A program made the position numbers and the translations under genes. A stretch of DNA of 46,983 bases. It comes from Sphaerisporangium sp. GTDB taxonomy: Bacteria > Actinomycetota > Actinomycetes > Streptosporangiales > Streptosporangiaceae. Location of the stretch: contig JAOPYI010000038.1 in assembly GCA_025964675.1 (NCBI GenBank), positions 1 through 46,983 of the forward strand, given 5' to 3'. The stretch's first letter is position 1, and the number at the start of each line of letters is the position of its first letter. This document shows, in pieces, positions 11,643 through 45,260 of this stretch. The notes under the pieces are model-generated. The model did no database searches, was not told the DNA's origin, and saw nothing but the letters and a program-made list of their open reading frames with translations.

Positions 11643-11665
11643 AGGGACGACGGAAACCAGGGAAA

Positions 11666-22549: not shown

Positions 22550-22553
22550 ACCT

Positions 22554-22577
22554 GGTCCCGGGTTTCTTCCCGGGGCC
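22554..22577. terminator. Bidirectional hairpin between convergent genes
   Basis: GGTCCCGGG pairs with CCCGGGGCC (one G-U) around TTTCTT. It lies between the ends of the BlaI-type gene and serC. No U-tract follows on either side. Confidence 0.4.
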
Positions 22578-22601
22578 CGGTCGCGGGCGTCGGGGCAGCC
22601 G

Positions 22602-23714
<1,113 letters not shown>

Positions 23715-23795
23715 CTAACCAAGGGTAGTGAGCTGCCTCGATGGTCACGCCGCGGGTCCGGATCGTGAGATGTGCGCAGGTGGGGGGTGTACGCG

Positions 23796-23823
23796 AAAGG
23801 CCCGCAACTGGGGGCTGCGGGCC
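23796..23823 (-). terminator. Intrinsic terminator of the citrate synthase gene
   Basis: GGCCCGCA (23799-23806) pairs with TGCGGGCC (23816-23823) around a 9-nt loop; on the minus strand TTTCG follows. It lies 18 nt past the stop of the citrate synthase gene. Confidence 0.75.
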
Positions 23824-23840
23824 CTCTTCAGTGGAGCTGG

Positions 23841-24947: not shown

Positions 24948-25117
24948 TCGCGGCTGCCTCCCTTTCTTGAAGTCAAAGCCTTGATGTCGAGATACCGGCG
25001 GGTCATATTCAACCCCCTAGGCGGAAGTGCTCCGCCTCCGGACCCGCCGAAACGCCATCGTCCCTGGTGGGGGGTGCCGCTTCGGTGGTGGTGCCGGACG
25101 CGGAAGAATACCGGTCT

Positions 25118-25771
25118 GTGGATGCCGCCTCGAGCCCGCCGTCCTTCGCCGGGCTCCGCCGTACGTACGAGGGACAGCCGTTGAAAGAGGCCGACCTCGC
25201 CGCCGATCCCGTCACGCAGTTCGCTTCGTGGTTCGCCGACGCCGTGGAGGCCGGGCTTCCGGAGCCGAACGCCATGGTGCTCGCGACCGCCTCCGCGGGG
25301 GGCCTGCCGACCGCGAGGACCGTCCTGCTCAAGGGCTATGACCGTGAGGGGTTCGTCTTCTACACCAACTACGAGTCGCGCAAGGGCCGCGACCTCGCCG
25401 AGAACCCGCGCGCCTGCCTGGTCTTCCCCTGGCACCCGCTGCGCCGCCAGGTCCGCGTGGAGGGCAAGGTGGTACGGCTGCCGCGCGAGGACTCCGCCGC
25501 CTACTTCCAATCCCGCCCGTACGGCTCGCGCATCGGGGCGTGGGCCTCGCGGCAGTCGGCGGTCGTGCGATCGAGGGACGAGCTGGACGCGCGCTATCAC
25601 GAGCTGGCGGAGCGCTGGCCCGAGGATCCGCCGATGCCCGACTTCTGGGGCGGGTTCCGAGTGGTGCCGACGGAGGTGGAGTTCTGGCAGGGGCAGACCG
25701 ACCGCATGCATGATCGGCTGCGCTACCGCCGCTCCGGGGAGTCCTGGGTGGTGGAACGCCTCGCCCCGTGA
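25118..25771 (+). CDS. pdxH: Pyridoxamine 5'-phosphate oxidase
   Basis: The FMN enzyme oxidises pyridoxamine- or pyridoxine-phosphate to PLP. From GTG 25118 it is 217 aa, the usual length. Landmarks are LRRTYEGQPL, TARTVLLKGYD (FMN), FYTNYESRKGRDL, FPWHPLRRQVRVEG, the QSRPYGSRIGAWAS segment and the C-terminal HDRLRYRR that contacts substrate. An in-frame GTG at 25067 would add 17 residues without family similarity; GGAAG upstream of 25118 supports the shorter form. It is divergent from the citrate synthase gene with 170 nt between them. Confidence 0.9.
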   Translation: MDAASSPPSFAGLRRTYEGQPLKEADLAADPVTQFASWFADAVEAGLPEPNAMVLATASAGGLPTARTVLLKGYDREGFVFYTNYESRKGRDLAENPRACLVFPWHPLRRQVRVEGKVVRLPREDSAAYFQSRPYGSRIGAWASRQSAVVRSRDELDARYHELAERWPEDPPMPDFWGGFRVVPTEVEFWQGQTDRMHDRLRYRRSGESWVVERLAP

Positions 25772-30467: not shown

Positions 30468-30637
30468 GGTTCGCGCGCTTTGTATGACCACCGCTGAGAA
30501 TGGCGGTTCCCTCGCCGTGTCCACCTCGCCCGTGACAGGGGACGCCGCCTATCATCGTGACCGGGCACCACAGACGTCGTCACCGTCTGGGTGAGGCGCA
30601 CGAGGTGTTCGTGAGATGCCCATGGAGGCATTCCACC

Positions 30638-31027
30638 GTGTCAGTCGAGCTGAACCACACCATCGTCATGGCCCGTGACCGGCAGGTTTCCGCCGACTTC
30701 ATGGCCACCATCCTGGGCCTGGAGGTCGGACCACCCTTCGGCCCGTTCCTGCCCGTCGCGACCAGCAACGACGTCACCTTGTACTTCGCGAACAGCGACG
30801 AGGACACGATCACCGCGCAGCACTACGCGTTCCTGGTCTCCGAGCAGGAATTCGACACGATCTTCGAGCGGATCCAGCAGGCCGGGATCACCTACTACGC
30901 CGACCCGTCGCTCCAGCACCCAGGCGAGAGCAACCGCCGCGCCGGCGGCCGAGGCACGTACTGCCTGGACCCGGACGACCCCTTCCCGGAGAACCTCACC
31001 CGGCCGTACGGCAGCCGCGAAGAGTAA
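30638..31027 (+). CDS. VOC family protein
   Basis: The 129-aa VOC-fold protein starts at GTG 30638, after GGAGG at 9 nt spacing. It opens VELNHTIVMARDRQVSADF and has HYAFLVSEQEFDTIFERI. The C-terminal ligand segment reads DPDDPFPENLTRPYG where close relatives have DPDGH-LLE-LTRPYG, so the Glu stays in place while the Gly-His pair is changed. A longer frame from 30557 lacks similarity at its N-terminus. Substrate is unknown. It follows the SpoIIE-type gene with a 170-nt gap. Confidence 0.8.
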   Translation: MSVELNHTIVMARDRQVSADFMATILGLEVGPPFGPFLPVATSNDVTLYFANSDEDTITAQHYAFLVSEQEFDTIFERIQQAGITYYADPSLQHPGESNRRAGGRGTYCLDPDDPFPENLTRPYGSREE

Positions 31028-31966: not shown

Positions 31967-32758
31967 CTAGCGTCCCCCCAGCTCGGTGGTGATGCTGTCG
32001 GCGTAGCGGCGGACGAGGGCGCCGATCTCGGCGGCGGCGTCGGCACGCATCTCGTGCTTGAGCGCCGTCACGCTGATCGCGCCGACGCAGGTAGCCGTGC
32101 GGTCGTGCACGCTCGCACCGATGCACACGACTCCGGCCGTGTCCTCCTCATCGTCGACCGCGTAGCCCCGTTCGGCGGTGCGGTGCAGGTCGCGCAGCAG
32201 GGTGTCGATGTCGACGATGGTGTTGGGGCCACGCGCGAGGAGGCCGATCGGCTCGATGATCGCGCGGACCTCGTCGTCCCCGAGGGTGGCGAGCATCGCC
32301 TTGCCGATCGCGGTGGCGTGTGGCAGCTCGCGGCGGCCGAGGAACGGGGCGATGCGGATGGTGCCGGGGCCGTCGATCCGCCCGATGGCCACGGCGTACC
32401 CCTCATCGAAGATGGCGAGACGTGAGGTCAGGCCGGCCACTCGGGTCAGCTCCTCCAGGTAGGGCATCGCGACCTCGCGGAGCCCGGTCTGGGAGGTCAC
32501 CTGGTCTCCCAGGTAGGCGAAACTCAGGCCGAGGCGGTATCGCCGGGTCGGGCCGCTCCCATGGCTGGCCACGAATCCACGTCGCAACAGTGTCTGCAGG
32601 ATGGAGTAGGCGCTGCTCTTGGACATGCCGACGGCGGTCGCGACCTCGGTGACGGCCAGTCCGTCGCGTCCACCGTGTCCGAGGGCCTCCACCACGTCGA
32701 GGGCGTGGTCGAGGCTCTTCACGCGGTACTTGTCGGCGTTGTCAGCGTTTGGGGTCAC
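31967..32758 (-). CDS. IclR-family transcriptional regulator of the divergent catabolic operon
   Basis: The 263-aa regulator has an N-terminal winged HTH at about 14-75 (SLDHALDVVEAL, VGMSKSSAYSILQTLLRRGFV) and the IclR effector domain at about 90-255 (ELPHATAIGKAMLA, ERGYAVDDEEDTAGVVCIGA). The start is GTG 32758. A GATAAT -10 ends 6 nt before it, so the message should be leaderless, and an upstream in-frame extension to 32890 is rejected because it would cross this promoter. IclR proteins sense small carboxylates or aromatic acids. It is divergent from the sugar transporter-Hyu-dehydratase operon and most likely controls it together with itself. Confidence 0.88.
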   Translation of the reverse strand: MTPNADNADKYRVKSLDHALDVVEALGHGGRDGLAVTEVATAVGMSKSSAYSILQTLLRRGFVASHGSGPTRRYRLGLSFAYLGDQVTSQTGLREVAMPYLEELTRVAGLTSRLAIFDEGYAVAIGRIDGPGTIRIAPFLGRRELPHATAIGKAMLATLGDDEVRAIIEPIGLLARGPNTIVDIDTLLRDLHRTAERGYAVDDEEDTAGVVCIGASVHDRTATCVGAISVTALKHEMRADAAAEIGALVRRYADSITTELGGR

Positions 32759-32764
32759 CGAACG

Positions 32765-32794
32765 ATTATCGGTATTACCGAACGCAGACGTCAA
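32765..32794 (-). promoter_or_regulatory. Leaderless promoter of the iclR-type gene
   Basis: On the minus strand TTGACG (32789-32794) is followed by an 18-nt spacer and GATAAT (32765-32770). Six nt separate the -10 from the GTG codon, so transcription would begin at or within a base of the start codon. Confidence 0.7.
32768..32783. promoter_or_regulatory. Operator-like palindrome O1
   Basis: ATCGGTATTACCGAAC lies between the -35 and -10 of the iclR-type promoter and overlaps the -10. A further half-site ACCGAAC (32757-32763) lies 20 bp away. Binding here would block transcription of the regulator gene. Confidence 0.6.
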
Positions 32795-32823
32795 CCCTCG
32801 CACGTAAAGTGCTGCATACCTCC

Positions 32824-32853
32824 TTGACGTCCACAATTTCCCAATGCCATAGT
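32824..32853 (+). promoter_or_regulatory. Promoter of the ABC transporter-Hyu-dehydratase operon
   Basis: TTGACG (32824-32829), an 18-nt spacer and CATAGT (32848-32853) resemble a housekeeping sigma promoter. The expected start of transcription is about 32860, giving a leader of about 48 nt that contains operator O2. Confidence 0.55.
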
Positions 32854-32872
32854 TTTGCAGGACATAACCCCG

Positions 32873-32888
32873 TTTGGTGATACCGAAC
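32873..32888. promoter_or_regulatory. Operator-like palindrome O2
   Basis: TTTGGTGATACCGAAC shares 12 of 16 bases with O1, including the TACCGAAC half. It lies just downstream of the inferred transcription start of the operon and exactly 105 bp from O1, close to ten helical turns, so both sites face the same side of the DNA. Confidence 0.6.
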
Positions 32889-32907
32889 AAGATCTAGGGT
32901 GGAACGT

Positions 32908-34041
32908 ATGCTCCGCTATCGCTCCTGGTCGCTAGGCGCGGCCGGTCTCGCCGCCGTCCTCGCGACCGCAGGTTGTCAGGCCTCGAAGACGTCGACCTCC
33001 ACGGGGATTGAGGTGCCTGCCCAGGCGATGTCGCACACGTTCTCGTGGGGCCAGTTCAAGCTCGCGCCTCGTATCGCCGAAAAACTCAAGAGCGGCGAGC
33101 AGGCGAACGTGATCATCGACATCCAGGGCACCGCGCTGCCGATCCAGGGCGCGCAGATGCGCATCGGCATGCAACGCGGATGCGACAAGGAGCAGGCCCG
33201 GCTGAGCATCTCGTGCCGGCTCACCGGCCCGGTCACCACCAACACCTCGGCGCAGCTGGCCGAGCTTGAGACGCTGCTCAGCGGCAACCAGGTCGACTGC
33301 CTGGGCCTTCAGTCGCCCCTTCCCGACCAGTACGTGGGCATCATCAACAAGTACGTCCAGGCCGGCGTTCCGGTCTTCACCCTGAACAACGACGTTCCCA
33401 ACTCGAAGAGGTTCGCGTTCTACGCGCTGAACGAGCAGCAGTCCGGCGAGATCAACGGCAAGACCACCGCGGCCATCGTCAAGGCCAAGGGCTACCAGCT
33501 CGGCACCGTCGCCCTCGGAAGTGGCCAGCCGGCGGGGCCTTGGGCACAGGCCCGCATGACCGGCTTCGTGGCCGGGTTCAAGTCCGCCTTCCCCCAGACC
33601 CCCTTCTTCAACGATCCCAAGAGCGGCATCCCCACCGGCGACAACTTCACCACCCAGGAAGTTCTCAACAGCGTCGGGCCGTTCCTGCTGGCACACAACG
33701 ACGTCAACCTCTTCTTCCACACCGACCAGGGGGTCGAGGGGGTCGGCGACATCATCAAGAGCAAGAACCTGACCGGCAAGGTGTGGACCTCCGGCTTCAA
33801 CGTCAGCGGTCCGATCCTCGACTCGATCGACGCGGGCCGGACGCTGGTCACCATCGACCAGGGCTTCGACAACCAGGCCGAGGCGCCCGTCTCGGCGTGC
33901 GTGGACTACCTGACGAGCGGCAAGGTCCCGGCGGAGCCCCTTCAGTACCTGCAGCCGATCGTGATCACCAAGGACGGCGGCGCCGGGCTCATGACAACCG
34001 CCGAGGCACGCAAGCGCCTCGCCGACGCCACGACGCGGTAG
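32908..34041 (+). CDS. Sugar ABC transporter substrate-binding lipoprotein
   Basis: The 377-aa lipoprotein has a signal peptide ending LATAGC, with lipidated Cys23. The mature part is a type I periplasmic binding protein of the RbsB/Peripla_BP_4 class: CLGLQSPLPDQYVGIINKYV, AGVPVFTLNNDVP, an IDQGFDNQ hinge segment and SACVDYLTSG. A GGGTGGA at 32897-32903 supports ATG 32908 over GTG 32899. Ligands of the family are mostly pentoses, hexoses, autoinducer-2 and related polyols; here the downstream enzymes suggest a pentose, sugar acid or sugar-like lactam. It heads the operon. Confidence 0.88.
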   Translation: MLRYRSWSLGAAGLAAVLATAGCQASKTSTSTGIEVPAQAMSHTFSWGQFKLAPRIAEKLKSGEQANVIIDIQGTALPIQGAQMRIGMQRGCDKEQARLSISCRLTGPVTTNTSAQLAELETLLSGNQVDCLGLQSPLPDQYVGIINKYVQAGVPVFTLNNDVPNSKRFAFYALNEQQSGEINGKTTAAIVKAKGYQLGTVALGSGQPAGPWAQARMTGFVAGFKSAFPQTPFFNDPKSGIPTGDNFTTQEVLNSVGPFLLAHNDVNLFFHTDQGVEGVGDIIKSKNLTGKVWTSGFNVSGPILDSIDAGRTLVTIDQGFDNQAEAPVSACVDYLTSGKVPAEPLQYLQPIVITKDGGAGLMTTAEARKRLADATTR

Positions 34042-34113
34042 ACGTGCGTCCCGCCGGAACAGTCGTCGCGGCGACGAGTCGCTCAACGTGCATCGAGTGT
34101 CAGGAGGTGTCAC

Positions 34114-35181
34114 ATGTCAACCGCAGCCGACGTCGTTAGTCCACCCGTCCAGCGCGCGGCGCTGCCCTTGGAGCGCCTGCGAACGCTGGGACTGGTGCTC
34201 GCGATCATCCTGATCGGCCTGTTCTTCCAGTCGCAACGGTCGACATTCCTCAGCAGCGACAACCTGTTGACCCTGCTGCGGTCGATGTCCTCGCTCGGCA
34301 TCATCGCCTTCGCCCAGCTGCTCGTCATCCTGCTGGGTGAGATCGACCTCGCCGTGGGCGCGATCTACGGCTTGGTCTCGACCTCCCTGGCGGTGCTGTG
34401 GCTGGGCGGCGGAAGCCTCCCCTTCACGCTCCCGTTCCTCCCAGCCCTGGCGGCGGCGTTGCTCATAGGCCTGTTCGCCGGCGCGCTGAGCGGGTTCCTG
34501 ACCGCCTACCTCAAGATCCACTCATTCATCGCGACCCTTGGGCTGCTCAGCCTCGCGTCCGGCACCGAGCTGCTGATCAGCAACGCCTCCACGTTCAACC
34601 CCGCGTACAACACCCCGCCCCCACCCTCGTGGGAGCTGGGCATCTTCCAGGCCCTCGGCGGCACGCAGCTGCCGTTCGGCATTCCGATCCAGGTGCTGTG
34701 GCTCGTGCTCTTCTTCGGCCTCTTCTGGTTCCTCCGCCACCGGAGTATCGCCGGGTTCCGCCTCCTGGCGATCGGGGGCAATCCCAAGGCCGCGGCCATC
34801 GCGCGCCTGCCGATCCGGCGCTACCGGCTGGTGGTCTTCATGGTCAGCGCCCTGATGGCGGCCATCGCCGGCATTCTGGACTTCTCCTATGTCGGCTCGG
34901 TCGGGCCGAACTCCGCCGGCCAGCTCAATCTCCAGGTGATCGCCGCCGTGGTGATCGGTGGCGCGAGCCTGATGGGTGGGCGCGGCACCATCTGGGGCAC
35001 CCTCCTCGGAGCGGTGCTGCTCGCCGTGCTGGCCAACGGTCTCGCCCTGCTCGGTATCGGTGCCTTCGCCCAGCTGCTCTTCGTGGGATTCGTGACCATC
35101 GGAGCGGTGATCCTCGACCGGGTGACAAGTGATCTCGGCAGCCGCCGCCGGGGGATGGCGGTCGGGAGTGCGACCTCATGA
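34114..35181 (+). CDS. Sugar ABC transporter permease (RbsC-like)
   Basis: The 355-aa protein has about ten hydrophobic segments and the BPD_transp_2 fold: LGIIAFAQLLVILLGEIDLAVG near residue 68, FIATLGLLSLASG, and the carboxy-terminal VVIGGASLMGGRGTIWGTLLGA, which carries the ATPase-coupling region. AGGAGGTG precedes the ATG. Its last four bases overlap the next gene. It forms the channel for the binding protein encoded upstream. Confidence 0.92.
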   Translation: MSTAADVVSPPVQRAALPLERLRTLGLVLAIILIGLFFQSQRSTFLSSDNLLTLLRSMSSLGIIAFAQLLVILLGEIDLAVGAIYGLVSTSLAVLWLGGGSLPFTLPFLPALAAALLIGLFAGALSGFLTAYLKIHSFIATLGLLSLASGTELLISNASTFNPAYNTPPPPSWELGIFQALGGTQLPFGIPIQVLWLVLFFGLFWFLRHRSIAGFRLLAIGGNPKAAAIARLPIRRYRLVVFMVSALMAAIAGILDFSYVGSVGPNSAGQLNLQVIAAVVIGGASLMGGRGTIWGTLLGAVLLAVLANGLALLGIGAFAQLLFVGFVTIGAVILDRVTSDLGSRRRGMAVGSATS

Positions 35182-36725
35182 CCACCATGGAGATCCGAGG
35201 AGTGCGCAAGCGGTTCGGGAACACGCAGGCGCTGGCCGGAGTCGACCTCACCCTGCGCGGTGGCGAGATCCTCGGCATCGCCGGGCCCAATGGCGCCGGT
35301 AAGAGCACCTTGACGAAGATCCTCTGCGGCGAGGAGTCGATGGACTCCGGCGAGATCCTCGTCGACGGACGCCTGTGGCAGCCGGGAGACGCCTCCGACC
35401 CCATCGCCATCGTTCACCAGGAACCCCAGGTGTGGACCAATCTCACCCTTGAGGAGAACCTTCTCGTGGGGAACGAGGGCTCCTGGTGGCGATCCCCGGT
35501 GGCAGGAGAGGAACAGCGGCGCATCCTGCGATCGCTGGGCGTCGCACACCTGGCCGACCAGCCGTTGGAACGGTGCACGCTCGCGGTGCGGCAGCGGACG
35601 GAGATCGCTCGCGCTCTGGTCCGGTCGGCCAGGTTCTTCCTGTTCGACGAGCCGAACTCCGCCCTCACCGACGAGGAGTCTCACGCCCTCTTCGCCTTCA
35701 TGCACGGTCTGGCGGATCAGGGCTACATCGTGGTCTTCATCTCCCACCGCCTGTCCGAGATGGTCGCGCACTGTGACCGCGTCGTGGTGATCAGGGACGG
35801 CCTGCCGGCGGCCACCCTAACCGGGGACGCGCTCACCGAGACGGCCATCGCCGTCGAGCTCGTCGCCGGCCAGTCGCTGCGCACCGAGCGCCGCGCGACC
35901 CCCAGGCTCACCGACGGCGAGAAAGCCGCGGAGGTGCTGGCCGTGACCGCCTGGAGTGACGGCGCCGGGTCGTTCAGCCCGTTGGACCTGACGCTTCGTC
36001 AGGGAGACGTGCTGGCGGTCGTCGGCGTGGAGGGGTCCGGCGGGCGCGAGCTGGTGGCCTCCCTGGGCGGGCATCGCCCCGCGACCGGCACGGCCAGGGT
36101 GAACGGCGCGCATGGTGCCAAGGCGCTCCGGACCAGGACCTCCTATCTCTCGGCGGACCGCCAGGAGATGCTGTTCCACCACATGTCCGTGGGTGAGAAC
36201 CTCGTCCTCCGTCTCGGACGCCGCGAGATCTGCGGGCCGTTCGCGCGCCTTCGCCGACGGGAGATCCAGTCCCGGTCGAATCAGATGATCGAGCGGTACG
36301 CGGTCCGTACCTCAGGACCGGCCCAGAACCTGTCGGCGCTCAGCGGTGGGAACCAGCAGAAGGTGGCCATCGCCGCCGCGATGGCCACCATGCCCGATGT
36401 GCTGGTCATCGAGGAGCCCACCCGCGGCGTGGACATCGGCAGCAAGGCCGAGATCTACACCATGCTCAACGAGTTCGCCGCCGACGGCCGCGCCGTCGTC
36501 GTGTTCTGCACCGAGGCCCCCGAGGTCTTCGAGGCAGCCAACCGGGTGATGGTCCTGGAAGGCGGCCGGATCGTCCAGGAGTTGGCGGTCGGCGACTACG
36601 ACACCGTCGACGCCTTCGCGCACGCCCTCGCGCTGCTCGAAGGCGTCGACACGACCCAGGATCAGCCCTCGACCGGTCTCACGACCCTCGTCGGCCCGTC
36701 CGAGAGAACGGAGGAATCATCGTGA
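35178..36725 (+). CDS. Sugar ABC transporter double ATPase (RbsA/MglA-like)
   Basis: The 515-aa protein is a tandem ABC ATPase. The first half has an intact Walker A GPNGAGKST and Walker B FFLFDEPNSALT but a weakened signature (LAVRQRTEIARAL). The second half has a degenerate Walker A (GVEGSGGRELV) with an intact LSGGNQQKVAIA and VLVIEEPTRGVDIGS. This asymmetry is normal for the carbohydrate-uptake CUT2 family. ATG 35178 overlaps the permease stop by 4 nt, and its own end overlaps the next gene by 4 nt. Confidence 0.92.
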   Translation: MTTMEIRGVRKRFGNTQALAGVDLTLRGGEILGIAGPNGAGKSTLTKILCGEESMDSGEILVDGRLWQPGDASDPIAIVHQEPQVWTNLTLEENLLVGNEGSWWRSPVAGEEQRRILRSLGVAHLADQPLERCTLAVRQRTEIARALVRSARFFLFDEPNSALTDEESHALFAFMHGLADQGYIVVFISHRLSEMVAHCDRVVVIRDGLPAATLTGDALTETAIAVELVAGQSLRTERRATPRLTDGEKAAEVLAVTAWSDGAGSFSPLDLTLRQGDVLAVVGVEGSGGRELVASLGGHRPATGTARVNGAHGAKALRTRTSYLSADRQEMLFHHMSVGENLVLRLGRREICGPFARLRRREIQSRSNQMIERYAVRTSGPAQNLSALSGGNQQKVAIAAAMATMPDVLVIEEPTRGVDIGSKAEIYTMLNEFAADGRAVVVFCTEAPEVFEAANRVMVLEGGRIVQELAVGDYDTVDAFAHALALLEGVDTTQDQPSTGLTTLVGPSERTEESS

Positions 36726-38860
36726 CGACCTCGCCCCGCTGGCGCGTCGGGATGGACACGGGTGGGACGTTCACCGACCTCGTCGCGCTGTCCGACCAGG
36801 GACAGCTGCTGCTACGGAAGGTCAGCTCTACTCCGCGTCGCCCCTCCGACGCCGTGTTCGCCGCGCTGGAGCGCACCGGCCTGGACCTGACCGGCGACCT
36901 CGACGACTTCGTCCTCGGCACCACGATCGCCACGAACGCCGTGATCATGCGCCGCGGCGCCCCCGTCATCCTGCTCACCACGGCCGGTTTCGAGGACGTC
37001 CTCTACATTCAGCGCATCGACCGTCCCGGCAGGTACGACCTGCAGTGGGTCAAGGCGGAGCCGTACGCCCCTCGCCGGAACACGGTCGGGGTCAGGGAAC
37101 GGGTGCTCGCCGACGGGACGGTCCGCCTCGCGCTGGCGGACGAGGAGGTCGACCGGGTGATCGAGGCCGTCGGCGGACTGCTGGCGGAGCACGACGGTGC
37201 GGCCATCGCGGTGTGCCTGCTCAACAGCTATCTCAACCCCGACCATGAGCGTGCCCTGGCGGCGAAGCTGCGTGCGGCCTTCCCGCAGGTGGCGGTCTCG
37301 CTGTCGGCTGAGGTGGCCCCCGTGTGGCGGGAGTACGAGCGCACGGCCACCACCGTGATGGACGCCTACGTGAGCCCCATCGTCCAGCGGTTCGCGCGAA
37401 CTCTGGCGTCGGGCCTGGATGAGCGTGCCATGTCGGGATGGCACGCCCTCATGAAGTCCAACGGCGGCCAGGTGCCACTCGAGCACTCCGCCGACCGGCC
37501 CATCGAGCTCGTCCTGTCCGGGCTGGCCGGCGGCATGATGGGCGGCGGCTACTGGGCGCGTGCGGTCGGGTCGGAGAAGGCCGTCACCCTCGACATGGGC
37601 GGTACCAGCGCCGATGTCGGAGTGGTGGTGGATGGGCAGCTCCAGTACACGGGCCTGTTCGAAGTGGAGTGGGGCGTGCCCATCGCCGTACCCATCATCG
37701 ACGTCTCGACGATCGGCGCCGGCGGGAGCTCGCTTGCCTACGTGGGCAACGACGGGCTGCTGCACGTCGGACCGGACAGCGCCGGGGCCGACCCCGGCCC
37801 GGTGTGCTACGGCCGGGGCGGCACCCAGCCGACGGTGACCGACGCCAACCTGGTCATGGGGCGGCTGCATCCGGATCACTTCCTCGGCGGGGAGCTGAGC
37901 CTGGACGCGGAACGCGCCGAGGCGGCGGTCGGTGAGCTGGCTGACTCGCTGGAACTGGGCGTCGACGCCGCCGCCGAGGCGATCCTCACCCTGGCCGTGG
38001 AGAACATGGCCGGCGCGGTACGGCTGGTCACCGTCGACCGTGGGCATGACTACCGCGAGTTCGACCTGGTCGCCTTCGGCGGCGCCGGCCCGCTCCACGC
38101 GGCGGCCATCGCCCGGCACATGCGGATGCGGCGGGTTGTCGTGCCGCCGACGCCCGGTCTGGTGTCGGCGTTCGGGACGATCATCTCCGACCAGCGCGTG
38201 GACCGCAGGATGACGGCCGTCCGTCGGCTCGACACCCCGGAGGCGGCGGACCTGGCCGGCATCCTGGCCCGCCTTGCCCGGGAGGCGCACGCGGAGCTGG
38301 CCGCGCAGCGCCGAGCCGACGCGACCGGCGACATCGTCGTTACCACGTACGTGAGCTGCCGGTACGTCGGGCAGAACTACGAGCAGGAGATCCGGACTTA
38401 CCGGGGCCACCTCGACCGCTCGTATGAGTCACTGCTCCCGGCCTCTCCGGACGATCCGGACCTGAACGGGCGCCTGTCGGAGATGTTCCACGCCTCGCAC
38501 GCCCGTGTGTACGGGTACGACCTCCCGGAGCAGGCCGTGCAGACCGTCTACGTCGGCGCGACCGCCCTCCTCGCGGGAGGAGAGGTGCGGTTCGTCCCCT
38601 ACGCGCGCACCACTCCGAATCCAAGGATCTCGACCAGGAGAGTGCAGGTCGGCGAAGGCGTCTGGGCCGACACCGTGGTCGTCGACCGCGAGGAACTCCC
38701 GCCGGGCTACGTGCTGAACGGACCGGCGATCGTGGAGGAGCCCAACTCGACCACCTTCGTCCCTCCCGGCTATCGCATGGAAGTGGACGGGACGTACTGC
38801 CTGATCATCGAGGCCGTCAAGGGTCTCGGGGAGAGCCTCGACACGGGAGCGGACGCGTGA
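36722..38860 (+). CDS. Hydantoinase/oxoprolinase A-like subunit
   Basis: The 712-aa protein belongs to the HyuA/acetone carboxylase beta family. It has Hydant_A_N at about 8-185 (RVGMDTGGTFTDLVAL, an actin-like phosphate loop; LGTTIATNAVIMRRGAP), the Hydantoinase_A domain at about 205-490 (LDMGGTSADVGVV, STIGAGGSSLAYV, VAFGGAGPLHA) and a C-terminal beta domain. Such subunits use ATP to activate a lactam, hydantoin or ketone enol together with a B subunit. GTG 36722 overlaps the ATPase gene by 4 nt. Substrate among oxoproline, hydantoins, lactams or ketones is not decided by sequence. Confidence 0.9.
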   Translation: MTTSPRWRVGMDTGGTFTDLVALSDQGQLLLRKVSSTPRRPSDAVFAALERTGLDLTGDLDDFVLGTTIATNAVIMRRGAPVILLTTAGFEDVLYIQRIDRPGRYDLQWVKAEPYAPRRNTVGVRERVLADGTVRLALADEEVDRVIEAVGGLLAEHDGAAIAVCLLNSYLNPDHERALAAKLRAAFPQVAVSLSAEVAPVWREYERTATTVMDAYVSPIVQRFARTLASGLDERAMSGWHALMKSNGGQVPLEHSADRPIELVLSGLAGGMMGGGYWARAVGSEKAVTLDMGGTSADVGVVVDGQLQYTGLFEVEWGVPIAVPIIDVSTIGAGGSSLAYVGNDGLLHVGPDSAGADPGPVCYGRGGTQPTVTDANLVMGRLHPDHFLGGELSLDAERAEAAVGELADSLELGVDAAAEAILTLAVENMAGAVRLVTVDRGHDYREFDLVAFGGAGPLHAAAIARHMRMRRVVVPPTPGLVSAFGTIISDQRVDRRMTAVRRLDTPEAADLAGILARLAREAHAELAAQRRADATGDIVVTTYVSCRYVGQNYEQEIRTYRGHLDRSYESLLPASPDDPDLNGRLSEMFHASHARVYGYDLPEQAVQTVYVGATALLAGGEVRFVPYARTTPNPRISTRRVQVGEGVWADTVVVDREELPPGYVLNGPAIVEEPNSTTFVPPGYRMEVDGTYCLIIEAVKGLGESLDTGADA

Positions 38861-40635
38861 GCACACGGACGGGCACGGACGTTGACAAGATCACCCTGAC
38901 CCTGGTCCACCGCCAGCTGGTCAACACCTGCGACGAGATGGCCGTCTCCATGATGAGGACCGCCTACTCGCCGATCTTCTCGGAGGGTCTGGACTTCTCC
39001 ACGCTCATCCTCGACCGGGACGGCAACCTCGTCGCCAACGCGGGCCTGAACCCCTCGATGCTCGGGGCGTCGTTGTACGCGGCGACCTGGATAGTGCGAG
39101 AGGTCGGCGCGGAGAACTTCGCCGAGGGCGATGTCTACATCCACAACGACCCCTACCGGGGCGGCTCGCACATGCCCGAGCACATGATGGTCATGCCGAT
39201 GTTCGTCGACGGGGAGCTCGTCGCCTTCATCGGCAACATCGCGCACATGGCCGAGATCGGCGGGATGGCGCCCGGATCCTTCGCCGCCACCGCCACCGAC
39301 GTGTACCAGGAAGGGCTCCGGCTTCCCCCGGTCCTGTTCTACCGAGGCGGTGAACCCGTCAGGGACATCTGGCGCATCATGCTCGCCAACCACCGGACGC
39401 CCAACGACTCCTGGGGGGACCTCCACGCGATGTACGGGTCGCTCCAGGTGGGTCGTCGCCGCCTGGAGCAGCTGATGGAGGAGCGTGGCATCGACCTGGT
39501 GACCGGGGTGTTCAGCGGCATCCAGGACTACACCGAGGCTGCGCTCCGGGAGAACATCCGAGCGCTGCCCGACGGCGTCTACCACGGGATGGAATGGTTC
39601 GACGACGACGGCATCACCGCGACCCCGTACGCGATCCGCCTCAGCCTGATCGTCGAGGATGACGAGATCATCTTCGACTACTCCCGCTCGGATCCCCAGG
39701 CGACCGGGCCGATCAACGCGCCGTACGTCGTGACCATGTCCGCGTCGCTGAACGCGCTCCTGTACATGATCGGAAGTGACCTGCCGGTCAACGCGGGCCT
39801 CAACCGCCCGGTCCGGGTCGTCACCAAGCCCGGCACCATCTGCTGCGTGCAGCTGCCGGGCGCCTGCGTCGGCGGCCAGACCGAGTACCAGCCCCGCGTC
39901 ATGGAGATGATCATGGGCCAGGTCCTCGGGCCCCTCCTGCCGGAGCGGGCCGCCGCGTCCAGCGGCAACACCTCGCTCAACTTCCTGTTCGGCGGCATCG
40001 ATCCTCGCACCGGTGACTATTACGCCCACTACCACTTTGAGGCCACCGGCTGGGGCGGCCGGATGACCACCGACGGCAACAACGCGACCATGCCTCCCCA
40101 CGCCAACTGCCGCAACACACCCGTCGAGATCTTCGAACTGCGATGGCCATGGATCCACGAGAGCTACCGGCTCGCCCGCGACGAGGTGGGAGCGGGCCGT
40201 CTGCGCGGCGGCGCGGGCGTGGTCCGGGTGCTGGAGGTCGCCGCGGAGACCATCTCCGTGAGCGCGCTATCCGACCGGGCCCACCAGGAACCGTGGGGGC
40301 TGTTCGGCGGGTCGGACGGCAGCCGCACCAGGATCGAGATCAGCCCGGCGGGAAGCGACGAGTTCGTCAGCTTCCAGCGGCACTTCGGGCTGGTGAGCCC
40401 GACCAAGTTCACCAACGTCCGTCTGCACCGCGGCGACCGGGTGCGCCTGACGTCCCCCTCGGGCGCCGGCTACGGGCCACCGGCAGAGCGCGTCCCCCAG
40501 CTCGTCGCACAGGACGTTCGTGAGGGCTACGTGAGCCCCGAGGACGCGGAGTCGGTGTACGCGGTCCGCCTGGACGCCGCGGGCGACGTCGACCATGTGG
40601 CCACCGTCCGTCTCCGTGAAGGGACATCCGCATGA
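38857..40635 (+). CDS. Hydantoinase/oxoprolinase B-like subunit
   Basis: The 592-aa protein is the HyuB/acetone carboxylase alpha-type partner of the HyuA-like protein. It opens ITLTLVHRQLVNTCDEMAVS and has YSPIFSEGLDFSTLILDRDGNL, the metal-binding-like HNDPYRGGSHMPEHM (near 105) and GQTEYQPRVMEM; near residue 435 comes DEVGAGRLRGGAGV. GTG 38857 overlaps hyuA-like by 4 nt and its end overlaps the small gene by 4 nt. Both genes therefore make a stoichiometric complex by inference. Confidence 0.9.
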   Translation: MSTRTGTDVDKITLTLVHRQLVNTCDEMAVSMMRTAYSPIFSEGLDFSTLILDRDGNLVANAGLNPSMLGASLYAATWIVREVGAENFAEGDVYIHNDPYRGGSHMPEHMMVMPMFVDGELVAFIGNIAHMAEIGGMAPGSFAATATDVYQEGLRLPPVLFYRGGEPVRDIWRIMLANHRTPNDSWGDLHAMYGSLQVGRRRLEQLMEERGIDLVTGVFSGIQDYTEAALRENIRALPDGVYHGMEWFDDDGITATPYAIRLSLIVEDDEIIFDYSRSDPQATGPINAPYVVTMSASLNALLYMIGSDLPVNAGLNRPVRVVTKPGTICCVQLPGACVGGQTEYQPRVMEMIMGQVLGPLLPERAAASSGNTSLNFLFGGIDPRTGDYYAHYHFEATGWGGRMTTDGNNATMPPHANCRNTPVEIFELRWPWIHESYRLARDEVGAGRLRGGAGVVRVLEVAAETISVSALSDRAHQEPWGLFGGSDGSRTRIEISPAGSDEFVSFQRHFGLVSPTKFTNVRLHRGDRVRLTSPSGAGYGPPAERVPQLVAQDVREGYVSPEDAESVYAVRLDAAGDVDHVATVRLREGTSA

Positions 40636-40871
40636 GCTGGCTGGATCTGACCAAGAGCTGGCAGGACACCTCCGTCGACTACTGCGACGTATGTGGAAAT
40701 CTCCTGATCCATACGTACTGGGAGTTCGCCGACGGCGACACCACCCTGCGGGCCTGCCGGCAGCAGGACGAAGCGCTGTGGCACCGCCTCAAGCGCCTCA
40801 GAGCCGAATACCCGCCGGTCGACCGCACACTGCCGCCGGGACTGGTGGCCGCGCGCGACCAGCGCGAGTAA
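40632..40871 (+). CDS. Small Cys-containing protein, possible third subunit of the Hyu-like complex
   Basis: The 79-aa product has Cys18 and Cys21 in YCDVCGN and Cys42 in LRACRQ, with His27 and His51 nearby: a plausible zinc site. Acetone carboxylases of the same HyuA/HyuB superfamily carry a small zinc-binding gamma subunit, and the 4-nt ATGA overlap with the B gene argues for joint assembly. This makes a carboxylase-type rather than an amidohydrolase-type reaction worth considering. The similarity is at motif level only, and the protein is much shorter than typical gamma subunits. Confidence 0.7.
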   Translation: MSWLDLTKSWQDTSVDYCDVCGNLLIHTYWEFADGDTTLRACRQQDEALWHRLKRLRAEYPPVDRTLPPGLVAARDQRE

Positions 40872-40925
40872 GGCCAGTTCATCCTCCCAACCGTCCCGTC
40901 CTTGGCGTTCTCATCGAGGAGAAAA

Positions 40926-41849
40926 ATGCCAACGCTAGTGAACCAGACCTACCGGCTGCCGTATCGGCACGGCGTCACTCCGAGCCGTGGTCGCTTTCCG
41001 GACGGTGCCAGCTTCCGCATCGAGATCCCCAGCGTCGAGAACCCGTCGGTCCTTGAGGCGGTGCTGTCCGCCGCCGCCAAGCACGACGTCGTGGTGAACC
41101 GTGTCTCGCAGGGATCAGGGGCCATGCTGCTCACCACGTCCGAACTGCGCGACATGGCCGCGATGGGCGCCGAGAACGGCATCGAGGTGTCGCTCTTCGT
41201 AGGACCGCGCGAGTCCTTCGACGTGGGAGCCAACGCGCGTACCCCCGAGGGCGCGGGACGCGGGGGACAGCTGCGCGGGGTGCGTCAGCTGATGTACGGG
41301 GTCGAGGACGTCGTCCGGGCCGTGGACGCGGGCATCCGGAGCTTCCTCATCGCCGACATCGGACTGCTCGTGGCCCTCCGCGACCTTCAGCGGACCGGTG
41401 ACCTCCCCGATGAGTGCGTGTGGAAGGTCAGCGTCTCCCTCGCCCCCTCTAATCCGGCGGCGCTGCGGGTGCTCGCGGATCTCGGGGCGTCCACGGTGAA
41501 CGTCCCTTCGGACCTGGCGTACGCGGACCTGGCCGACATGCGGGCGGTCACCGATCTCCCGCTCGACCTCTATCTCGAGTCGTCCGACGGCCTCGGGGGC
41601 GTGGTCCGGGGTCATGAGATCGCGGATCTCGTCGCGATCGGGGCACCGCTGTACACGAAGTTCGGCCTGCGCAACGCCCGGGACGTCTACCCGTGCGGGG
41701 AGCAACTCCTCGACGACGCGATCCGCAATGTCCGCGCCAAGGTCCATCGGGCGGCGGTCGCCCTCGAATGGCTGGCTCGCTCCGGTACCGGCGCGGTGCA
41801 GTCCAAGCCGCACGCGGCTGGGCTCGGCCTTCCCCGCCGGGCGGCCTAG
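40926..41849 (+). CDS. Barrel-like protein of unknown function
   Basis: The 307-aa product starts at ATG 40926, after GAGGAG at 4-5 nt spacing. Alternating strands and helices look like a TIM barrel: FRIEIPSV, NGIEVSLFVGP, GIRSFLIADIGLLVALRDL, VWKVSVSLAPS, STVNVPSDLAYADLADM, LPLDLYLESSDGLGG, APLYTKFGLRN. I do not recognise the family. It shows no DapA/DHDPS lysine motif and no U32 peptidase signature. It lies where the second, dehydrating enzyme of an oxidative pentonate route would be expected, so an aldolase, lyase, isomerase or dehydratase role is possible but unproven. Confidence 0.75.
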   Translation: MPTLVNQTYRLPYRHGVTPSRGRFPDGASFRIEIPSVENPSVLEAVLSAAAKHDVVVNRVSQGSGAMLLTTSELRDMAAMGAENGIEVSLFVGPRESFDVGANARTPEGAGRGGQLRGVRQLMYGVEDVVRAVDAGIRSFLIADIGLLVALRDLQRTGDLPDECVWKVSVSLAPSNPAALRVLADLGASTVNVPSDLAYADLADMRAVTDLPLDLYLESSDGLGGVVRGHEIADLVAIGAPLYTKFGLRNARDVYPCGEQLLDDAIRNVRAKVHRAAVALEWLARSGTGAVQSKPHAAGLGLPRRAA

Positions 41850-41888
41850 CGTGAGCGCCGACCGTGACCAGAGGCGGCGGTCAAGGCC

Positions 41889-43619
41889 GTGACGGCGTCG
41901 TTGCGCAGCGCCGCGTGGTTCGACGGTGACGACGAGGTCGCCGTCGAGCACCGCGCCGCCCTCGGGTCGCTCGGGATCACCATCTCGCCCGCCGACCCCC
42001 GGCCGGTCATAGGCATCGCGCAGTCCGTCAGTGACCTCAACCCCTGCAACGAGGGACTCCGCGACCTGGCCGAGGCGGTGAAGGAAGGCGTGCGGGCGGC
42101 GGGGGGAATCCCCCTTGAGTTCCCCACCATCAGCCTGGGCGAGGACCTCATGAAGCCCAGCGCCATGCTGTACCGAAATCTCATGGCCATGGACGTCGAG
42201 GAGACCCTGCGGGCCCACCCGATCGACGGGGTGGTCCTGCTGGGCAACTGCGACAAGACGATCCCCGCGCAGCTCATGGCCGCCGCGAGCGCTGATCTCC
42301 CGGCGATCCAGGTGGCCGGCGGATCCCGGCCGGTCGCGACCTTCCGGGGAAAGCCGGTCGGCGCGGGAACGGACCTCTGGCGGCTCTGGGAGGAGTACCG
42401 CACCGGTGAGCTGAGCCCGGAGGACTGGGCCGCGTTCGAGCGCTGCCTCAGCTGTGGTCCGGGCGCCTGCAACACGATGGGGACGGCGTCGACCATGGCG
42501 CTTCTCGCCGAAGCGGTTGGCATGTCCCTGCCGGGGACGTCGTCGATCCCGACCGGTGACCCCCGTGCCCGGGTGGCGGCCGAACAAGCCGGTCGCCGGG
42601 TCGTGGCCATGGTTGAGGAGGGGCTTCGCCCTTCGACGATCATGACCTCGGCCGCCTTCGACAACGGGGTCACGGTGCTCGCCGCGATCGGCGGGTCGAC
42701 CAACGCCGTCATCCATCTCTGCGCGATAGCCGGTCGGCTGGGTCTGCGGATCCCTCTCGAACGGTTCCAGCAGCTGGGCCATCGTGTCCCCGTCCTCGCC
42801 GACGTGTCGCCATCGGGGCGCTACCTGATGGACGCCTTCGACCGGGCCGGCGGGCTGCCCGCCCTCCTCGCCGAGATCGCCGGCCATCTGGACCTCCAGA
42901 CGACGACGGTCACCGGAGGCCCGCTGAGCGGCTATGTCGCCGCTACCGGAGGGTCCCCGCGCGGTGCGATCCGGAGTCTGGACCATCCCGTCCAGGAGCA
43001 TGGCGGCATCGCCGTGCTCCGGGGCAACCTGGCTCCGGACGGGGCCGTCCTGAAGACCGCCGCCGCGAGCCCCGAGCTGTTCCGCCACCGTGGCCCCGCT
43101 GTCGTCTTCCGCGGATGGCACGACCTGCGGCGGCGGCTGGACGATCCGGACCTCCCGCTCAGCGCGGAAACGGTCCTGGTGCTGACCGGTTGCGGGCCCA
43201 AGGCCGTGCCCGGGATGCCCGAATGGGGGATGATTCCGATACCCGCCCGCCTGGCGGCGGCCGGGGTCAAGGACATGGTGAGGATCAGCGACGGGCGGAT
43301 GAGCGGAACGAGTTTCGGGACGTGCGTGCTGCACGTGGCGCCCGAGGCGGCGGCCGGAGGTCCGCTCGGGCTGGTCCAGGACGGGGACATGATCGAACTG
43401 GATGTGGAGGCCGGTCTGCTCCACCTCGATGTCCCCGAGCCGGAGCTGGAGGCTCGCCGCCGGCTCGCCGAACCGTTCCGCACGCCGCACCTGCGTGGCT
43501 GGCCTCGCCTCTACCAGGACCACGTGACCCAGGCACCCGAAGGATGTGACCTCGACTTCCTCCAAGCGCCGACCCCCGAACACCGCCGCTTCGTCGAACC
43601 CGTCGTGGGGCGTTCCTGA
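41889..43619 (+). CDS. IlvD/Edd family dehydratase, pentonate (xylonate/arabonate) type
   Basis: The 576-aa enzyme has the iron-sulfur cysteines of the family: Cys53 (NPCNEG), Cys121 (GNCDKT) and Cys194 (GACNTMGTASTM). SLGEDLMKPSAMLYRNLMAMDVEE is the signature of sugar-acid dehydratases such as L-arabonate and D-xylonate dehydratase rather than of branched-chain IlvD. IGGSTNAVIHL and SDGRMSGTSFG complete the active site. It should dehydrate an aldonate to a 2-keto-3-deoxy acid. Start GTG 41889 has a modest AAGG close by. The exact sugar acid (pentonate, galactonate, gluconate) is not determined. Confidence 0.88.
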   Translation: MTASLRSAAWFDGDDEVAVEHRAALGSLGITISPADPRPVIGIAQSVSDLNPCNEGLRDLAEAVKEGVRAAGGIPLEFPTISLGEDLMKPSAMLYRNLMAMDVEETLRAHPIDGVVLLGNCDKTIPAQLMAAASADLPAIQVAGGSRPVATFRGKPVGAGTDLWRLWEEYRTGELSPEDWAAFERCLSCGPGACNTMGTASTMALLAEAVGMSLPGTSSIPTGDPRARVAAEQAGRRVVAMVEEGLRPSTIMTSAAFDNGVTVLAAIGGSTNAVIHLCAIAGRLGLRIPLERFQQLGHRVPVLADVSPSGRYLMDAFDRAGGLPALLAEIAGHLDLQTTTVTGGPLSGYVAATGGSPRGAIRSLDHPVQEHGGIAVLRGNLAPDGAVLKTAAASPELFRHRGPAVVFRGWHDLRRRLDDPDLPLSAETVLVLTGCGPKAVPGMPEWGMIPIPARLAAAGVKDMVRISDGRMSGTSFGTCVLHVAPEAAAGGPLGLVQDGDMIELDVEAGLLHLDVPEPELEARRRLAEPFRTPHLRGWPRLYQDHVTQAPEGCDLDFLQAPTPEHRRFVEPVVGRS

Positions 43620-43667
43620 AGACCTTGTGTGGCCTCATCCGAACCGAACTCCAAGGAAACAGCGCCG

Positions 43668-45260
43668 ATGCCCTCTCATGCCCCCGGCCAGACGGCCGAG
43701 CCGACGACCTTCCGGGCGACGTCCCCCCTCACGGGCGAGGACGGTCCTTCGATTCCCGAGGCCACCGAGGCGCAGGTCAAAGCGGCCGTGACAGCGGCCA
43801 CGGACGCGTACCGGGCGCTGCGGACCTGGCGGCCGTCCCGGCTGGCGGCCCTCCTGGACGCCGTGGCCGACGCGTTGGAGCACCGGAGCCACGAGATCGT
43901 CGCCGCGGCGCGCCAGGAGACGGGCCTCGCCGTGGCCGCCCTGGAGGGGGAGTCCCTCCGCACCGTCGGCCAGCTCCGCATGTTCTCCCGCCTGGTGCTC
44001 ACCGGCCGCCACCTCGAAGCGACGGTCGACCACGCGGATCCCGGCGCCCGCCCGCCGCGCCCCGACCTACGCCGGATGAACGTGCCGCTAGGTCCCGTCG
44101 CGGTGTTCGGGGCCAGTAACTTCCCCCTCGCCTTCGGGGTTGCCGGCGGTGACACGGCGTCGGCTCTGGCCGCCGGATGCCCGGTCGTCGTCAAGGGCCA
44201 CCCGCTGCACCCGGTCACCTCGACGCTGTGCGCGGAGGCCATCGATGCCGCCCTTCGAGACATGGCGGCACCTCCTGGCACGTTCGCCCTGCTCCAGGGA
44301 GGTTCCCACGCGGTCGCCCGCCAGTTGGTCACCGAGCCGGGGATCAAGGCCGTGGGCTTCACCGGATCGACGGCCGGTGGACGGGCGCTTTACGATCTCG
44401 CTGCGGCCCGCCCGGAACCGATCCCCGTCTTCGCGGAGATGGGCAGCGTGAACCCAGTGGTGATCTTCGAGTCCGCGCTGAGGGTCCGCGGCGCGCGGAT
44501 CGCGACCGAGCTGGCGGGATCGCTGCTGACACGCACCGGCCAGCTGTGCACCAGCCCCGGCATCCTGTTCGTTCCCCAGGGAGAGCCCGGTGACGCGCTG
44601 GTCGCCGCGCTCCGCGAGGAGCTGCTCGCCGGTGGCCGAGGGCCGATGCTGAGCCCTGGCATGGCAGGGTCGCTGACCTCCGCGCTCGAGGAGGCGTGCG
44701 CGACACCGGGAGTGAGTCTCGCGACCGGGGGCCACAGGCTGTCGGCCGTCGAGCTGGAGAACACCCTGGTCATCGCGGACGCTAAGGCATTCTCCGCCGG
44801 TCCGCACCTCCGGGAGGAGTACTTCGGCCCCGCGTCGGTCTTGGTCCGGTTCGGTCCGATGGCCGAGCTGCTGTCGATGCTGGACCTCCTGCCGGGCAGC
44901 CTGACGTTCACCATCCACGCCGAGCCGGGGGACGCCCCTGACCCGGTGGTCGCCCTGGCCGCCGAAAGGGCCGGGAGGATCGTCTGGAACGACTACCCCA
45001 CGGGGGTCGCGGTGACGGAGGCCATGCACCACGGCGGGCCGTACCCCGCCACGAGTTCGGCCGCCCACACCTCCGTCGGACCCGCGGCGATCCGCCGGTT
45101 CCTGCGGCCGGTGTCGTACCAGAACACGCCCGACGCCGTCCTGCCCGAAGCGCTGCGGGAGCGGAATCCGCTCGGCCTTTCCCGCCTGGTCGACTCCGAG
45201 TGGACCCGCGCCGGCGAGCCGGGTCTCAGCGCTGGGTCTGGGTGTACAGGGCGAGCATGA
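43668..45260 (+). CDS. 2,5-dioxovalerate (alpha-ketoglutarate semialdehyde) dehydrogenase
   Basis: The 530-aa aldehyde dehydrogenase (from ATG 43668, after AAGGAAA) resembles the long KGSADH group with VFGASNFPLAFGVAGGDTASAL, VVKGHPLHP (Lys176), FTGSTAGGRAL, Glu257 in FAEMGSVNPV and the nucleophile Cys294 in TGQLCTSPG. That enzyme oxidises 2,5-dioxopentanoate to 2-oxoglutarate, the final step of Weimberg-type pentose or hydroxyproline catabolism. A start at 43629 would add 13 residues without support. The C-terminus overlaps a small gene on the other strand by 35 bp. Confidence 0.88.
   Translation: MPSHAPGQTAEPTTFRATSPLTGEDGPSIPEATEAQVKAAVTAATDAYRALRTWRPSRLAALLDAVADALEHRSHEIVAAARQETGLAVAALEGESLRTVGQLRMFSRLVLTGRHLEATVDHADPGARPPRPDLRRMNVPLGPVAVFGASNFPLAFGVAGGDTASALAAGCPVVVKGHPLHPVTSTLCAEAIDAALRDMAAPPGTFALLQGGSHAVARQLVTEPGIKAVGFTGSTAGGRALYDLAAARPEPIPVFAEMGSVNPVVIFESALRVRGARIATELAGSLLTRTGQLCTSPGILFVPQGEPGDALVAALREELLAGGRGPMLSPGMAGSLTSALEEACATPGVSLATGGHRLSAVELENTLVIADAKAFSAGPHLREEYFGPASVLVRFGPMAELLSMLDLLPGSLTFTIHAEPGDAPDPVVALAAERAGRIVWNDYPTGVAVTEAMHHGGPYPATSSAAHTSVGPAAIRRFLRPVSYQNTPDAVLPEALRERNPLGLSRLVDSEWTRAGEPGLSAGSGCTGRA

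Follow-up and report, generated by a model that had tools for sequence, protein, structure and literature searches.

A possible sugar-lactam operon in Sphaerisporangium with a U32-like protein as candidate 2-keto-3-deoxypentonate dehydratase

Closest described systems and layout of the operon

The operon described here lies in a stretch of 46,983 nucleotides (nt) from Sphaerisporangium sp. (assembly GCA_025964675.1, contig JAOPYI010000038.1; the whole stretch is called the window below), and may serve the breakdown of a sugar lactam, with a divergent relative of the U32 peptidases, named U32L here, as a candidate 2-keto-3-deoxypentonate (KDP) dehydratase. Among the described systems the Weimberg-type oxidation of pentoses is close to it, sharing an IlvD/Edd dehydratase, a terminal aldehyde dehydrogenase (ALDH) and a presumed 2-oxoglutarate end product, whereas the window cluster has neither sugar dehydrogenase nor lactonase nor a known KDP dehydratase, and a putative lactamase of the Hyu kind stands at its entrance. 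Known D-KDP dehydratases are proteins of the FAH family and L-KDP dehydratases of the DHDPS family, according to excerpts of PMC7374468 and PMC9795676; the solved chains 2q18 (FAH) and 3fkk (DHDPS) represent the reaction proposed for U32L, but U32L has no Pfam match to either family, and its placement as a relative of one or the other was rejected on this ground. With U32 peptidases (PF01136; 5d88) it shares a distant profile match and a TIM barrel, differing in the absence of an invariant Cys and in its sugar-acid context. For the Hyu genes the nearest systems are the caprolactamase CapAB (6yra), N-methylhydantoinase and 5-oxoprolinase (the Hyd branch), which have in common with the window the ATP motifs of HyuA, three metal ligands and the length of HyuB, while the window differs by a Glu in place of one Asp ligand, by an extra small CxxC gene, and by the sugar-type importer and sugar-acid enzymes around. 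The alpha-beta-gamma gene order of acetone carboxylase AcxABC is also shared, but the window HyuB is much shorter, the four-Cys site of the gamma subunit is incomplete, and the sequences are nearer to the hydrolases.

In the window (contig C216 of a 7.77-Mb genome labelled G000; the other G-numbers stand for genomes compared and L-numbers for loci), the list of open reading frames (ORFs) gives nine plus-strand ORFs at 32908-45260 facing a divergent IclR-family gene, and 4-nt overlaps join the permease to the ATPase, the ATPase to HyuA, HyuA to HyuB, and HyuB to a gene of 79 amino acids (aa), just as the original prediction from the bare sequence had it. Pfam and NCBIfam confirm IclR, Peripla_BP_4, BPD_transp_2, ABC_tran, Hydantoinase_A, Hydantoinase_B, ILVD_EDD and Aldedh. 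While the earlier count of nine genes is right, the 315-aa U32L, likely the missing dehydratase, had been left out of its title and reading. The IlvD/Edd sugar-acid dehydratase (41889-43619, + strand) scores 771 bits with PRK06131 (cut-off 539), which places it among the pentonate dehydratases of this family and supports the dehydratase logic put forward earlier; with the specific L-arabinonate dehydratase model it reaches 702 bits, below the equivalog cut-off of 882, and its best solved relatives are 8ej0 and the L-arabinonate dehydratases 5j83/9evv. The ALDH (43629-45260, + strand; PF00171; the start may be ATG 43668) has 1eyy/3v4c as nearest solved chains and is proposed as 2-oxoglutarate-semialdehyde dehydrogenase (KGSADH), a role backed only indirectly by Azospirillum, where a 49% identical homologue adjoins SMP-30 and DHDPS genes. 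The ATP-binding cassette (ABC) importer consists of a substrate-binding protein (32908-34041, + strand, alternative start 32899; PF13407) with a lipoprotein-like N-terminus, the lipobox being judged by eye in the translation, a sugar-type permease (34114-35181, + strand; PF02653, with all NCBIfam sugar permease models below cut-off) and an ATPase of the xylose/arabinose/ribose type (35178-36725, + strand; PF00005 in two stretches, NCBIfam below cut-off); the Pfam families are in accordance with the sugar-type importer originally proposed. No sugar dehydrogenase and no lactonase is found among the nine genes with Pfam and NCBIfam, again as predicted.

The U32-like family as a candidate class of KDP dehydratase

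U32L (40902-41849, + strand; the start may be ATG 40926) has no Pfam match at E<=0.001 and stays under the gathering score of PF01136 (15.9 against 22.4 bits), while all 55 aligned members of its family match PF01136 at E<=0.1, the best at 5.6e-10, and both annotated records found carry the name 'U32 family peptidase'. Conserved cysteines for an Fe-S cluster are a feature of other U32 proteins. Among the 55 U32L sequences no Cys column exceeds 30%, and three His columns do so with none invariant; the invariant polar residues, which include E41, R67, D152, K175, N200, D222, Y224, E226 and K253, lie on or near predicted strands of a TIM barrel modelled by AlphaFold (predicted local distance difference test score 89). 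The reading of U32L as a true peptidase was demoted because its gene keeps sugar-acid company and no Cys is conserved. At E<=0.001, 22 of 100 relatives have a member of the family (G000 counted, and G069 with a marginal partial match); across the genome collection, at least 582 stretches encode one. One distant member on an Enterobacter chuandaensis plasmid (L054, 10868-22472), 27% identical, is accompanied by an aminotransferase, an oxidoreductase and two iron-containing redox enzymes, with no sugar-acid context.

The gene neighbourhoods of U32L were surveyed in the best 80 of at least 582 loci, a sample biased to relatives of the window, which spans Actinobacteria, Acidobacteria, Chloroflexi, Thermomicrobium and Bacillota; the counts stand without a shuffled background for comparison, many stretches are truncated by contig ends and were kept in all the same, and the profiles derive from clusters made of these loci themselves. 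On the whole, 51 loci have a dehydratase (IlvD-type in 40, enolase-type in 15, UxaA-type in 5) and 39 an ALDH, with both present in 23 and at least one of them in 67; MDR or SDR dehydrogenases occur in 47, SMP-30 lactonases in 23 and IclR regulators in 42. KdaD-like FAH and DHDPS genes are listed in only 6 and 7 loci, respectively, and 16 of the 23 loci with both dehydratase and ALDH have neither in the stretch. The cluster of Paenibacillus paeoniae (L102) runs from ABC permeases through an SDR, a GH4 hydrolase, an aldose epimerase and IlvD to U32L and an ALDH of the type labelled ALDH10, the Cohnella cluster L115 resembles it in the profile table, and the P. paeoniae genome has no KdaD-like FAH and no AraC-like DHDPS at E<=1e-10. 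Among the 13 loci with Acidobacteria or Terriglobia in their titles, nine list ALDH10 as the gene immediately ahead of U32L (L122 has this ALDH as two separate ORFs, and L106 has a 266-aa ORF between ALDH and U32L), and for the ALDH10 representative in L113 the top model is 2-oxoglutarate-semialdehyde dehydrogenase, at 640 bits with a cut-off of 770. Three of these nine (L106, L121 and L122) hold genes of the clusters for an FGGY-type sugar kinase and a class II aldolase (by Pfam on the L106 members) and a sodium:solute symporter (by Pfam on L106 and L122), a set that makes a pentose-like context, while no kinase or aldolase gene of this kind is seen in the gene listing of L108 and L113. In mycobacteria, the profile table puts SDR, U32L, SMP-30 and ALDH together in L093, L094 and L097.

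Some further companions were noted in these loci. The neighbours in L093 include a protein with a D-serine-dehydratase domain and one resembling RidA, through which amino sugar acids perhaps enter the same pathway. In many actinobacterial loci between L058 and L096, U32L and IlvD have beside them a protein of the M24 peptidase fold (cluster c11, 19 members), and in Bacillaceae, genes for Lar_N, LarC-type nickel-insertion and AIR-carboxylase-domain proteins lie inside U32L sugar-acid clusters (L114, 6440-7687; L127, 6730-8771).

The known KDP dehydratases bear directly on the assignment. In agreement with the original remark that no known one is present, the window cluster contains no FAH- or DHDPS-type KDP dehydratase. 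Searched at E<=1e-10 with a KdaD-like and with an AraC-like protein, the whole G000 genome gives no match to either, though it does hold three DHDPS and three FAH family members of other kinds. A survey of 27 U32L genomes (those of 26 loci and G000, with L114, L125, L127, L060 and L065 included as positive controls) detects a KdaD-like FAH at 150 bits or more in seven and a DHDPS at 80 bits or more to the L065 protein in eight; by these loose thresholds 14 genomes have one class or the other and 13 have neither, among the latter G000, G489, P. paeoniae, Mycolicibacterium S2-37 and Kitasatospora SUK 42. Weighing this together with the neighbourhoods, we lean towards U32L being a KDP dehydratase of a third class, unrelated to the FAH and DHDPS types. 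Several observations tell against it. Thirteen of the 80 loci, some of them on short contigs, have neither dehydratase nor ALDH, and a Foldseek search of the PDB with the model returns generic barrels only (TM-scores of 0.4-0.5), with class II aldolases on top and 5d88, a U32 protein, in tenth place. An L-KdpD-like DHDPS is present alongside U32L in four of 80 loci (L060, L064, L065 and L087; that of L065, the one tested, is closest to L-2-keto-3-deoxyarabonate dehydratase at 104 bits) and a KdaD-like FAH in six of 80 (L125 was tested, with 231 bits to 2q18), while L094, L114 and L127 hold a DHDPS of another kind as judged by eye, and L061 has one further FAH-family match, also of another kind. 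Where a known KDP dehydratase is present, U32L would either duplicate its activity or act on another stereoisomer, which is the main weakness of the assignment; we read the co-occurring enzymes as added stereospecificity. The alternative that these ten of 80 loci suggest, with U32L as an epimerase or in some accessory role in the breakdown of sugar acids and the KDP step left to an unrecognised enzyme elsewhere, is unlikely in our view, since clusters of the L102 type and the neighbouring ALDH and U32L genes of Acidobacteria apparently leave this step to U32L alone, and the window genome has no recognisable alternative enzyme.

The Hyu trio and its small CxxC protein

HyuA (36722-38860, + strand; PF01968/PF05378) and HyuB (38857-40635, + strand; PF02538) are the putative ATP-binding and metal-site subunits of an ATP-dependent lactamase or hydantoinase, and the 79-aa CxxC protein (40632-40871, + strand; no Pfam match) is a putative small third subunit. 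For both large subunits the solved relatives rank in the same order, namely N-methylhydantoinase (432 bits for HyuA, 266 for HyuB), the caprolactamase 6yra, which is CapAB (347 and 213), acetophenone carboxylase and acetone carboxylase. HyuA keeps the ATP motifs DTGGTFTD, DMGGTSAD and GADPGP, and HyuB, with 592 aa, has the length of the Hyd branch (581 in caprolactamase against 776 in acetone carboxylase). The metal ligands of CapB, given as Asp41, His99, Asp102 and His124 in an excerpt of PMC8453981, align with D46, H105, E108 and H130, three of the four being identical, so the Asp-His-Asp-His tetrad of the Hyd branch is incomplete in HyuB, its second Asp being Glu. This Glu is present in all seven aligned HyuB sequences (the window, L056, L165 and L170-L173), all of which come with the small CxxC protein or domain, and Glu at position 108 is possibly a mark of the subgroup. 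In the 79-aa protein, C18, C21, G22 and C42 are common to the small proteins linked to Hyu genes in Rhizobium, Shinella, Sulfitobacter and Halalkalicoccus, and the HyuB of Agrobacterium vitis has a small CxxC domain with the same residues fused at its N-terminus; from these CxxCG...C proteins, beside or fused to Hyu in five other genera, the small subunit is by sequence a recurrent part of this Hyu subgroup.

The gene contexts of these relatives may point to lactams. On the Shinella sumterensis plasmid (L173, 6965-13748), ABC transporter and GntR genes are followed by HyuA, HyuB and the small gene and then by a gamma-aminobutyrate (GABA) transaminase and a succinate-semialdehyde dehydrogenase, both above their model cut-offs (544 bits with 506.65 required, and 706 with 646.35), an arrangement that would follow the logic of 2-pyrrolidone degradation; the Sulfitobacter cluster resembles it, with another aminotransferase. 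The plasmids of Agrobacterium vitis (L170) and Allorhizobium ampelinum (L178) combine, at 1326-13442, a sugar ABC importer, HyuA and HyuB with an aminotransferase, a gluconate-5-dehydrogenase-like SDR and a gluconokinase, a combination that would be compatible with the breakdown of a gluconolactam by way of 5-ketogluconate. A further parallel is on Rhizobium plasmids (L172, L174-L176 and L166 with L180), five records of close relatives with small proteins 95-100% identical, hence not independent cases. They share with the window a sugar ABC importer, HyuA/small/HyuB, a sugar-acid dehydratase and, in four of the five gene tables, an ALDH (in L172, 43% identical to that of the window), and they differ from it in having DHDPS where the window has U32L and altronate dehydratase where it has IlvD (both nearby in all five), and by an additional SDR and DegT aminotransferase, the latter in four of five, with the fifth stretch ending at the DHDPS gene. 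The DHDPS of L172, the one tested, is by sequence an L-KDP dehydratase (368 bits to 3fkk), and the Rhizobium cluster, judged by its sequences, is a mirror of the window with DHDPS in the place of U32L and altronate dehydratase in that of IlvD. In the records themselves, the small gene is annotated within hyuB in one case, and one gene table is without hyuA.

Taken together, the products of the three genes resemble an ATP-dependent lactamase that has a small CxxC subunit rather than a carboxylase. In the original prediction, ring opening and carboxylation had been left side by side; the nearness of hydantoinase and caprolactamase and the Shinella and Sulfitobacter contexts favour ATP-dependent lactam opening, and hydrolysis is the likelier of the two. 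Plasmids bearing such genes also suggest another substrate. According to an excerpt of PMC6733357, HyuA/HyuB genes on a succinamopine Ti plasmid may open lactam opines, which supports lactam opening and equally an opine-like conjugate, that is, a pentonate or pentose tied to an amino-acid lactam or hydantoin, whose amino-acid ring Hyu would open while the sugar half passes through IlvD, U32L and ALDH. N-methylhydantoinase as the closest relative of HyuA/HyuB, and the sugar ABC importers and aminotransferases around the Rhizobium and Agrobacterium genes, are in line with such a conjugate; none of the ten genes of the window, however, can be recognised as splitting sugar from amino acid or as using the amino acid, and we regard it as rather unlikely. 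A ketone carboxylase of the acetone carboxylase type, turning a C4 ketose into a C5 acid, had been suggested by the alpha-beta-small gene order, since according to PMC5214803 a gamma gene, with its four cysteines, is confined to the carboxylases, whereas hydantoinases consist of just two genes. Against it stand the length of HyuB, the ranking of its relatives, the GABA-type genes downstream in Shinella, and the small protein itself, which has three Cys only, no PF08882 (Acetone_carb_G) match and an hhalign probability of 3.6%; this possibility was demoted accordingly and is improbable.

Conservation, proposed pathway and control

All ten genes (the nine and IclR) are present in the actinobacterial metagenome-assembled genome nzgw101 (G489:C47, loci L056/L154; 1.8 Mb) in a different arrangement, with IlvD, ALDH and IclR on one strand (59%, 37% and 60% identical to the window) and the substrate-binding protein (73%), permease (73%), ATPase (54%), HyuA (70%), HyuB (79%), small protein (67%) and U32L (72%) on the other, the order of these seven being as in the window, with a 4-nt overlap between the small gene and U32L. 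In Sphaerisporangium album (L027/L055) all ten are collinear with the window. Given these two genomes, the co-occurrence of the ten genes is more than chance. They are rare elsewhere: at E<=1e-150 HyuB is found only in G000 and in G005, a genome of its genus, among 149 relatives and only in G489 itself among 199 relatives of G489, and homologues of the 79-aa protein occur in one of 396 genomes of the phylum, which is the window's own. Being rare and patchy yet kept together, the set suggests transfer. The single pathway inferred in the original prediction is strengthened by this, as the ten genes stay together in the rearranged G489 and the Hyu genes are conserved beside dehydratase and ALDH genes, where their absence from such places had been named as the finding to count against it. 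That the three Hyu genes merely ride along in an ordinary pentonate operon with which they have nothing to do, as their company with U32L in just two of 80 loci (L055 and L056) might suggest, is very improbable in view of the seven-gene order, the 4-nt overlap and the 79% identity of HyuB in G489. In S. album (G005/G733, contig C1, 39226-41823) an IlvD gene also adjoins a KdaD-like FAH gene, a conventional D-KDP route alongside the Hyu operon.

Based on the parallels in Shinella, Agrobacterium and Rhizobium, we propose that the operon encodes a catabolic pathway from a polyhydroxylated C5 lactam to 2-oxoglutarate, with U32L at the KDP step, and give this a probability of about 0.4; as for the substrate class taken by itself, the chances for and against a lactam seem to us even. 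Each chemical step, like the substrate class and the regulation, is inferred. The substrate would be an aldonolactam, e.g. the lactam of a 4- or 5-amino-deoxy-pentonic acid, which the sugar-type ABC importer would take up and HyuA, HyuB and the small CxxC protein would hydrolyse at the expense of ATP to an amino-deoxy-pentonate; the IlvD-type dehydratase would then remove water from C2-C3 to give a 2-keto-3-deoxy acid, U32L would act as a lyase, eliminating at C4 to yield 2-oxoglutarate semialdehyde, and the ALDH would oxidise this to 2-oxoglutarate. Three further points count against the proposal. The ALDH is far under the curated KGSADH cut-offs (89.6 bits with NF042993, cut-off 770, and 96.7 with NF052305, cut-off 750), so that of the earlier name KGSADH the Aldedh family stands while the specific identity is unproven by sequence; Asp occupies the place of E108 in CapB, N-methylhydantoinase and both carboxylases, so the chemistry of HyuB may differ; and the operon has no aminotransferase, unlike the Hyu clusters of Rhizobium, Agrobacterium, Shinella and Sulfitobacter. 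On chemical grounds an aminotransferase may be unneeded with a 5-amino substrate, because the product of U32L would be an enamine or imine hydrolysing spontaneously to 2-oxoglutarate semialdehyde and ammonia.

IclR would control both transcripts of the proposed pathway through palindromic sites. The IclR-family gene (31967-32890, - strand; PF01614, PF09339) faces the operon, and an operator-like palindrome, GTTYGGTNNTACCGAAC, has three copies on the + strand, at 32747-32763 and 32767-32783 with two mismatches each to the pattern and at 32872-32888 as an exact TTYGGTNNYACCGAA, the only exact copy in G000. Counted on both strands with up to three mismatches, the pattern gives nine strand-matches in the window, six of them being the three sites, against 1.14 expected, and none of 100 shuffles reaches nine. 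In the whole of G000, TTYGGTNNYACCGAA with at most one mismatch occurs 10 times forward and 8 times reverse, compared with 5 and 4 for a reversed control pattern. The counterpart region of G489 has the motif twice beside its IclR gene (L154, 10235-10251 and 10384-10400, one mismatch each), and two exact matches to TTYGGTNNYACCGAA lie elsewhere in that genome. Because the three palindromes fall inside the called IclR ORF and its helix-turn-helix domain begins only at residue 59, the start at 32890 assumed originally is probably about 45 codons too far upstream. Elsewhere in the window, three ORFs (419, 470 and 156 aa) within 22509-25184 and 30557-31027 have no Pfam match at E<=0.001.

In the open-access literature, outside which most subscription journals lie, we found no paper that links U32 peptidases with arabinonate or 2-keto-3-deoxy acids, none that links the Weimberg route with a hydantoinase or combines hydantoinase with pentonate-route enzymes, and none on actinobacterial arabinonate clusters of this kind; among the titles listed by further searches, none describes such a pathway. 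The fullest form of the proposal, a dedicated bacterial sugar-lactam route with a three-subunit ATP-dependent lactamase and a U32-like KDP dehydratase of a third class, in a family of sugar-acid lyases and not peptidases, is put forward tentatively. If it is true, a large family now labelled peptidase would gain a function, the Weimberg route would have a third KDP dehydratase, not homologous to the other two and of use to pathway engineers, and the sugar lactams, relatives of the iminosugar glycosidase inhibitors, would gain a proposed route of biodegradation.

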